From Pigmentiphaga sp. NML080357 (GTDB lineage: Bacteria; Pseudomonadota; Gammaproteobacteria; Burkholderiales; Burkholderiaceae_B), in contig NZ_NINW01000049.1 of assembly GCF_002188465.1 (NCBI RefSeq), forward strand, positions 496,001 to 560,000: 64,000 nucleotides of DNA, in the 5' to 3' direction. Shown here piece after piece: positions 38,569-38,827 of this stretch. The position numbers were made by a program, and so were the translations under genes. Position 1 is the first letter of the stretch. Each line of letters begins with the position of its first letter. The notes under the pieces were generated by a model. The model made no database searches and had not been told where the DNA came from. It saw only the letters and a list, made by a program, of their open reading frames with translations.

Positions 38569-38827
38569 GTGGAAAACCTTGTGGGAAAGTGTGTGGAAAT
38601 CCGGTGGAAAGCCCGTGGACAGCCATGTGGAAAAGCTGTGGAGATGGCTGTGGGCAGGCTGTGGGAAAGCTGTGCACTGCCAGGGGACAGTGGGTGGACA
38701 ACCGCCCTCGCGCCTGTGGAAAAGCGGTGCGGAACCCTGTGAAGAAGCGGTGCATGACCGGTGGGCAAGCCTGGGGACAAGGCCGGGATAAGCGCGGGAT
38801 AAGGGTGGGATATCCTGTGGACGGAAT
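38569..38827. repeat. Phased array of 23 units of 11-12 bp (consensus GTGGAAAGCCT)
   Basis: From 38569 to 38827 the plus strand divides without gaps into 23 units, 17 of 11 bp and 6 of 12 bp (mean 11.3). Starts: 38569, 38581, 38593, 38604, 38615, 38627, 38638, 38650, 38661, 38672, 38683, 38694, 38705, 38716, 38727, 38739, 38750, 38761, 38773, 38784, 38795, 38806 and 38817. Sixteen units begin GTG and twelve begin GTGG; unit 13 (38705) is the only one without a match. Best copies are GTGGAAAACC, GTGGAAAGCC, GTGGGAAAGC and TGTGGAAAAGC; the last ones turn into CGGGATAAG. On the minus strand several read TTTTCCACA or TTATCCC, close to the DnaA box TTATCCACA. It fills the gap between the cueR promoter and the argB promoter and shows no gene. 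Confidence 0.85.

Follow-up and report, generated by a model that had tools for sequence, protein, structure and literature searches.

A phased array of DnaA-box-like units upstream of argB in Pigmentiphaga as a candidate DnaA-loading site away from the replication origin

INTRODUCTION

What is a run of 23 short, regularly phased repeats doing between a copper-responsive regulator gene and a gene for arginine synthesis? The run lies in Pigmentiphaga sp. NML080357, in a window of 64,000 nucleotides (the whole stretch of DNA analyzed here), which covers positions 496,001 to 560,000 of contig C1 (666,732 bp) in a genome of 5.73 Mb (G000). A first-pass annotation, made from the sequence letters, had proposed a platform for the cooperative binding of DnaA or another protein. 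To our knowledge, the limits on DnaA activity outside Escherichia coli and Bacillus subtilis are poorly known, and such arrays may be unrecognized control points for DNA replication.

Several features of known systems bear on this proposal. According to one review, the low-affinity DnaA sites of E. coli oriC lie exactly 2 bp apart in one direction and are filled progressively from a strong site; the E. coli datA locus, more than 450 kb from oriC, can absorb much DnaA-ATP; the B. subtilis chromosome carries clusters of DnaA boxes; and the structure of the DnaA oligomer on double-stranded DNA had not been determined (PMC4451416). Other reports state that datA requires an IHF site (PMC4585315) and that Thermotoga maritima DnaA binds two boxes of the same direction best at a spacing of 2 bp (PMC10316083). 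Among the papers listed by a literature search, no title or abstract opening describes such arrays in Alcaligenaceae.

RESULTS AND DISCUSSION

The array at argB

We find an intergenic run of 23 units, with cueR to its left and argB to its right (Table 1). Units were located with a 14-nt matrix, obtained by starting from one array-type word and applying expectation-maximization to the argB upstream regions of 10 genomes (161 sites), and were joined into chains where spaced 10 to 13 bp. The window array scores 142.9 as a chain, compared with at most 22.7, and at most 4 units, in 1000 dinucleotide shuffles. The matrix was trained with the window array included, and thus a matrix-free check of self-match matters too. 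The best self-match of lags 11 and 12 over the array is 0.494 (maximum of 2000 dinucleotide shuffles, 0.388), and the lag-11 self-match of the 250 bp from position 38569 is 0.488, which is within the top 0.05% of positions in a window that averages 0.267. The array is real, and the period of 11 to 12 bp read off by the first-pass annotation is borne out.

Table 1. Features of the array region, in window coordinates.
Feature	Position	Strand	Basis or remark
cueR, Cu(I)-responsive MerR-type regulator	37953..38405	-	TIGR02044, 165.8 bits (cut-off 147.4); start codon chosen by eye
Likely operator ACCTTGACATCATGGCAAAGT of the leftward copper genes, presumably of the CueR type	38512..38532		Inferred; bounds the array region on the left
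Array of 23 phased units, 262 bp	38566..38827	+	Unit-matrix chain; consensus [CG]CTGTGG[AG]NA[AG][CG]C
TTTTCCACA, exact TTWTNCACA (relaxed DnaA box)	38626..38634	-	Pattern scan
Degenerate unit, in register with the array but matching nothing	38705..38713	+	Score -22.8
TTTTCCACA, exact TTWTNCACA (relaxed DnaA box)	38715..38723	-	Pattern scan
TACAAT, probable argB -10	38847..38852	+	By inspection
argB, acetylglutamate kinase	38890..39819	+	TIGR00761, 242.2 bits (cut-off 151.3)

The earlier count of 23 units stands, as does the observation that one of them, at 38705, matches nothing. The earlier division into 17 units of 11 bp and 6 of 12 bp becomes 14 spacings of 11 bp, 7 of 12 bp, and 1 of 10 bp (n = 22), and in-phase GTG and GTGG are found in 17 and 13 of the 23 units rather than in 16 and 12; these small differences stem from the use of another register. 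Units weaken toward the argB end (CGGGATAAG type). The 10 arrays of the genus have similar geometry: of their 169 spacings, 92 are 11 bp, 63 are 12 bp, 11 are 10 bp, and 3 are 13 bp. Such runs are rare in the surrounding DNA. Among the 12 top-scoring chains per strand of the 667-kb contig, none besides the array has more than 2 units, and in 0.98 Mb sampled on both strands from three related genomes, only one best-per-stretch chain exceeds 21.2, namely the argB array of one of them (G006).

Several readings of the repeats were rejected. The units are contiguous, mostly at 11 to 12 bp, and have no spacers, so that they are not a CRISPR, as had already been noted. A period of 11 to 12 bp is not a multiple of 3, which argues against a coding origin; open reading frames do cross the array in several frames. 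An RNA element is not supported by Rfam, which gave no match for 37000-40200 or for 12 relative loci. A-tract curvature is disfavored by phase 8, which lies within the A-run and is the least conserved column.

The unit as a DnaA box

Read on the other strand, the unit is TTNTCCACA, that is, a DnaA box TTATNCACA that is loosest at position 3 and has C at position 5 (matrix of 161 sites, 10 genomes). The box-like 9-mers of the window array are read on the minus strand. Two of the 23 window units match the relaxed box TTWTNCACA exactly, 12 are within two mismatches, and 11 have three or more, so most would be low-affinity sites. The first-pass statement that several minus-strand copies fit this pattern thus applies exactly to two units, the others being mismatched. 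Sites with at most one mismatch number seven on one strand of the window array (300 shuffles: mean 0.9, maximum 5), and the opposite strand has none in all 10 genus arrays. The form TTATCCACA is absent from the window array. Conservation extends to the C at box position 5 and to the G/C flanks, neither of which a DnaA box requires.

The matrix also finds DnaA-box regions away from the array. Four intergenic regions of C1 (at 117.5, 184.5, 26.7, and 28.4 kb; 0.2% of the contig) account for 5 of the 10 best matches outside the array and for 6 of the 20 best, the remaining 14 of the 20 being elsewhere, while 300 column-permuted matrices place at most 2 of their top 20 there. These regions were chosen because they contain TTATNCACA, and the test therefore shows resemblance, not binding. 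In our assessment, the best explanation of the 23-unit array is a head-to-tail run of mostly low-affinity predicted DnaA sites.

Conservation of the core columns

Conservation within the array is biased toward the core of the unit. Among four near species (L003, L004, L005, and L007), 3 of 66 positions are variable in core phases 3, 5, and 6, as against 8 of 22 in the free phase 8 (P = 5e-4); a comparison of seven core phases with the rest gives P = 2.4e-4. Phases were assigned via the matrix register, which fixed the split in advance but not the observed variation. Taken over all its columns, the array does not exceed the fourfold sites of argB in conservation (invariant at 84.1%, 212/252, and 84.8%, 140/165, respectively; left spacer, 60%, 21/35); only the core columns do.

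A similar bias is seen at seven ssb-type loci of Achromobacter, where conservation is 90% in the GTGG core, 69% in the free column, and 49% in the flanks (core versus flanks, P = 3.5e-12; core versus free column, P = 0.0015). This comparison covers the 7 of 10 loci that share identical spacing (L205, L232, and L320 excluded), and ssb lies within the retrieved DNA for six of them (not L304). A neutral tandem repeat is not expected to behave in this way, and the column-specific conservation speaks for binding at each unit.

Distribution in the genus and at argB outside it

ArgB matches were obtained from 31 genomes (G000 and 30 relatives; G023 gave no locus), and the 30 argB loci, with minus-strand ones turned, were examined by eye (19) or by GTGG count alone (11). 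The array is upstream of argB in 10 of the 11 genomes of the Pigmentiphaga group, with chains of 23, 18, 22, 18, 22, 22, 16, 18, 10, and 10 units, and is thus conserved in the genus. In the eleventh genome (G010), argB is without an array, as judged by eye, and an array of 14 units (chain score 52.4) lies between an acyl-CoA dehydrogenase gene and prfC; it is weak by the four-unit model described below (E = 0.008).

Among the best 80 of 453 matches to named argB loci, eight (L076 to L083) bear the array. These are labeled Pigmentiphaga kullae, P. humi, P. litoralis, Pigmentiphaga sp. (two), a “Rubrivivax” MAG, a “Burkholderiales” MAG, and “Alcaligenaceae”; they are mostly the same genomes as the ten above, and two assemblies (L076 and L077) are identical over 410 bp around the array. 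The other 72 of these best 80 are outside the genus (Achromobacter, Bordetella, Limnobacter, Verticiella, and others) and have no chain above 15.7, which equals a single unit, although for two of them the DNA upstream of argB amounts to just 502 bp (L133) and 175 bp (L152), too little for absence to be shown there. Bordetella and Achromobacter, to which the first-pass annotation had pointed for the same array at argB, are among those in which none was seen; the genome that holds the window belongs to the Pigmentiphaga group and not to these two genera.

Arrays at unrelated loci in other genera

Wider searches used a sequence-only model of four consecutive units (R1), built from 20 segments of argB arrays, whose E-values are rough; searches of more than 40 genomes had stricter filters. 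Of 268 genomes of the family, 44 have a match at E ≤ 1e-3 (ten of these 44 are members of the genus), and 224 have none under these strict filters. With laxer filters (E 0.01), 16 of 40 Achromobacter genomes have a match, some of 1 to 2 units only, and 24 have none. Such arrays are recurrent but not general across the family.

The genes beside them are diverse. Twelve units are found by an AlgX-domain gene in three congeneric genomes (chain scores 84 to 92; domain assigned by Pfam for one genome and by similar N-termini for the other two), and 6 to 7 units at the Achromobacter ssb-type loci, where several genomes have a second match ~207 bp away. Other arrays are located between a SpecificRecomb (PF10136) gene and its neighbor (7 and 9 units), between an amidohydrolase gene and a TauD-type gene (10 to 11 units), upstream of a TetR gene in Verticiella (8 units), and by the monomeric isocitrate dehydrogenase gene of Bordetella genomosp. 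1 (5 units). L307, L310, L311, L318, and L225 have only 1 to 2 units and are not counted as arrays. At one Achromobacter locus, 7 units in L303 (1499-1580) correspond to 9 in L306 (1499-1602), which points to array growth by unit duplication.

Matches at replication origins

Outside the genus, at least one match per genome was inspected in the 34 remaining family genomes. In five, the match is beside mnmG with parS-like sites (mnmG called by signature motif and Pfam-verified for L196). In seven, it is beside iteron-like repeats, which were found with a pattern built from the same sequences, and an RPA initiator (PF10134) is verified for one of these (L189). The remaining matches of the 34 are elsewhere. 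The iteron/RPA-type loci (L186 to L190, L194, and L223, also L235 and L236) have arrays of 3 to 4 units, which we infer to be plasmid or ICE origins. The L189 array has no megablast match among plasmid records, so this label comes from the RPA gene and the iterons.

Two of 398 other genomes of the order pass E ≤ 1e-5 with the argB-array model. The better of these, from another family (G561; E = 5e-9), has its match between dnaA and dnaN, genes recognized by eye. This region (L218, 1501-1613) has eight TGTGGATAA boxes within a 10-unit chain spaced at 10 to 12 bp, mostly 11. The matches at dnaA-dnaN, mnmG/parS, and iteron/RPA loci indicate that the unit and its spacing occur at origins of relatives. 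L218 is, in its own right, a very regular oriC with a nearly exact 11-bp period.

Position on the chromosome

The GC skew of C1, which is weak in G000, changes sign near 117 to 120 kb and has its cumulative minimum near 120 kb. We regard the region at 117.5 to 117.8 kb, with three TTATCCACA within ~190 bp, as the oriC candidate; dnaA is 90 kb and mnmG 18 kb away. The counterpart region in G008, a one-contig genome, is at 5.886 Mb, at the skew change (sign switch at 5.70 to 5.88 Mb). The array is at 534.6 kb of C1, 417 kb from the candidate, and the corresponding distances are 557 kb in G002 and 544 kb in G008. In G006, a single contig with irregular GC skew, it is 2.03 Mb, which weakens the case for a conserved distance to oriC.

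The array itself was rejected as a chromosomal oriC, given that the skew minimum lies elsewhere and that there is no AT-rich unwinding element; GC at the array is 48 to 66% per 100 bp. Nor is there, at up to one mismatch, an IHF-like site within 38401-38900, using WATCAANNNNTTR, which we take to be the IHF consensus.

A proposed DnaA-loading site away from oriC

We hold, with moderate confidence, that the array is a site for loading DnaA away from the origin, which would limit free DnaA-ATP. It would present ~20 mostly low-affinity DnaA boxes in one direction, 2 to 3 bp apart and facing about the same side of the double helix. Nucleation of DnaA-ATP would take place at the two units that match the relaxed box in full, and DnaA-ATP would then spread head-to-tail over the weaker units. 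In this way, the array might, like E. coli datA, take up DnaA-ATP after oriC firing or fork passage, perhaps also stimulating its hydrolysis. Loading of a DnaA oligomer is proposed because of the published 2-bp, one-way geometry and the fit of the array to it. In three of four measured genomes, ~0.4 to 0.56 Mb separate the locus from the oriC candidate, so that it would be duplicated soon after initiation. The first-pass idea of a phased DnaA platform keeps its footing in the box-like unit, the 11- to 12-bp spacing, the matches at origins, and the core conservation, while DnaA binding, its cooperativity, and any effect on initiation are predictions from sequence.

The main rival is local control, in which DnaA binds the array to repress or activate argB, or to insulate it from the copper operon, thereby tying arginine synthesis to DnaA activity. 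We consider this unlikely, but it retains weight because the last unit of the window array ends at the expected argB -35 region. A consensus scan gave no argB promoter. From the array end to the ATG, 60 of 61 bp (98%) are invariant in the four near species, and the array has stayed with argB in 10 of 11 genus genomes, including two (L010 and L011) in which the left neighbor resembles, by eye, a copper-ATPase gene rather than cueR. Against this, the distance from chain end to argB start ranges from 61 to 106 bp across genomes, G010 has its array at prfC rather than at argB, and the arrays of other genera are by ssb, TauD-type, AlgX-domain, and TetR genes, with no evident common function. Arrays beside unrelated genes favor a role that would be independent of the neighboring gene and exerted at the level of the chromosome. 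That a different protein occupies the repeats, such as an OmpR/PhoB-type response regulator or a nucleoid protein, seems to us improbable. OmpR/PhoB-family regulators recognize direct repeats of 11 bp, and the conserved C5 and G/C flanks go beyond what a DnaA box needs. However, the consensus equals the DnaA box at 8 of 9 positions, with the ninth free (chance ~0.2% for a fixed 9-mer at an 11-bp period), the array model matches replication origins in other bacteria, and the PhoB box was rejected on a by-eye comparison with its consensus, which agrees at ~6 of 11 positions.

Two further readings would leave the array with no present function or with a former one. A decaying minisatellite, that is, functionless tandem copies of an 11-bp word, would account for differences in unit number (10 to 23 between species, and 7 versus 9 at the Achromobacter locus) and for an overall conservation that equals that of argB fourfold sites. 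Decay, however, would affect all columns alike, whereas the core and the free phase differ sharply in variability; unit and exact spacing are kept at seven Achromobacter loci with flanks only 49% alike; and the unit recurs at unrelated loci and origins. We therefore judge this reading highly improbable. We give still less credence to a remnant origin, whether of a former chromosomal oriC or of a plasmid oriV that has integrated. Similar arrays of 3 to 4 units do occur at iteron/RPA-type origins, but none of the nine neighboring genes tested (hslV, hslU, CusF, DUF411, ArgB, HAD, SlmA-like, glyoxalase, and CueR) encodes an initiator, local GC falls no lower than 48% over 100 bp, GC skew places oriC elsewhere, and the array is kept in 10 genomes with constraint on its core. 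An oriV of the RPA type at argB was rejected because the nine neighbors tested include no RPA initiator gene, and blastn of the argB array against 72,556 plasmid records gave no match.

Relation to known systems

The proposed DnaA loading away from oriC has partial parallels in described systems. The E. coli oriC arrays R5M-tau2-I1-I2 and C3-C2-I3-C1 are likewise degenerate 9-mer direct repeats, 2 bp apart in one direction and on one helical face, but, as the review presents them, they have four sites each and lie inside oriC between high-affinity boxes (PMC4451416). The argB array and its counterparts in the genus instead have 10 to 23 units, are far from the oriC candidate, and have no AT-rich unwinding element. 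The datA locus resembles the argB array in being a cluster of DnaA-box-like sites outside oriC, and the array is a few hundred kilobases from the oriC candidate in three of four measured genomes; datA differs in having five boxes and a required IHF site, whereas the boxes of the argB array are numerous, contiguous, and mostly weak, and an IHF-like site is absent at up to one mismatch. Because the required IHF site was not found in 38401-38900, we do not claim that the array belongs to datA. The B. subtilis clusters are also intergenic, outside oriC, and thought to titrate DnaA. The iteron/RPA-type origin arrays of Alcaligenaceae share the unit and the 11/12-bp spacing but have 3 to 4 units, with iteron-like repeats alongside and an RPA initiator gene at L189. 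We know of no long head-to-tail phased run in the B. subtilis clusters.

It is possible, though doubtful, that long phased head-to-tail runs of weak DnaA boxes constitute a separate class of chromosomal control locus in Alcaligenaceae. Such loci might act as rulers or sensors for DnaA-ATP polymerization on double-stranded DNA without IHF, with unit number setting the time of initiation and with place shifting between genera while unit and spacing are kept. If the arrays load DnaA, they would be natural substrates for studying the structure and action of the DnaA oligomer on double-stranded DNA, which are hard to study in oriC. The variation in unit number between species would also make titration models of initiation timing testable, by altering how many units stand at one intergenic locus.

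Other intergenic elements

Three further elements were observed. A canonical DnaA-box cluster at 184351-184728 of C1, 67 kb from the oriC candidate and between hemE- and priA-like genes (by eye), is a possible second origin or DnaA-regulatory site. A short conserved intergenic element, TTATCCCCA-N4-8-TGTGAACAACCCTGGGGAAA, has two or three DnaA-like boxes in opposed orientation and is found in the Pigmentiphaga group and in other Alcaligenaceae genomes (L185 and L184, near 1490-1540 on the minus strand; L282; L283; L237 at 2987; and L221 at 2993), with a related form in L195, L227, L228, and L233. The element has no Rfam match, and the model match at position 168077 of contig C3 in G000 does not fit its pattern. 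The G008 copy is at 2.75 Mb, close to where the GC skew switches at the terminus, and by eye the element might be a DARS-like site. Last, a dispersed intergenic repeat of ~75 to 110 bp, with the core GGATCCGGCTCCGCCGGTCC ... GGGGGGCGCGCG, is present in the window at ~43549-43660 and in L040 at ~17469-17544; most genomes of the Pigmentiphaga group have dozens of copies, with 55 matches in G000.
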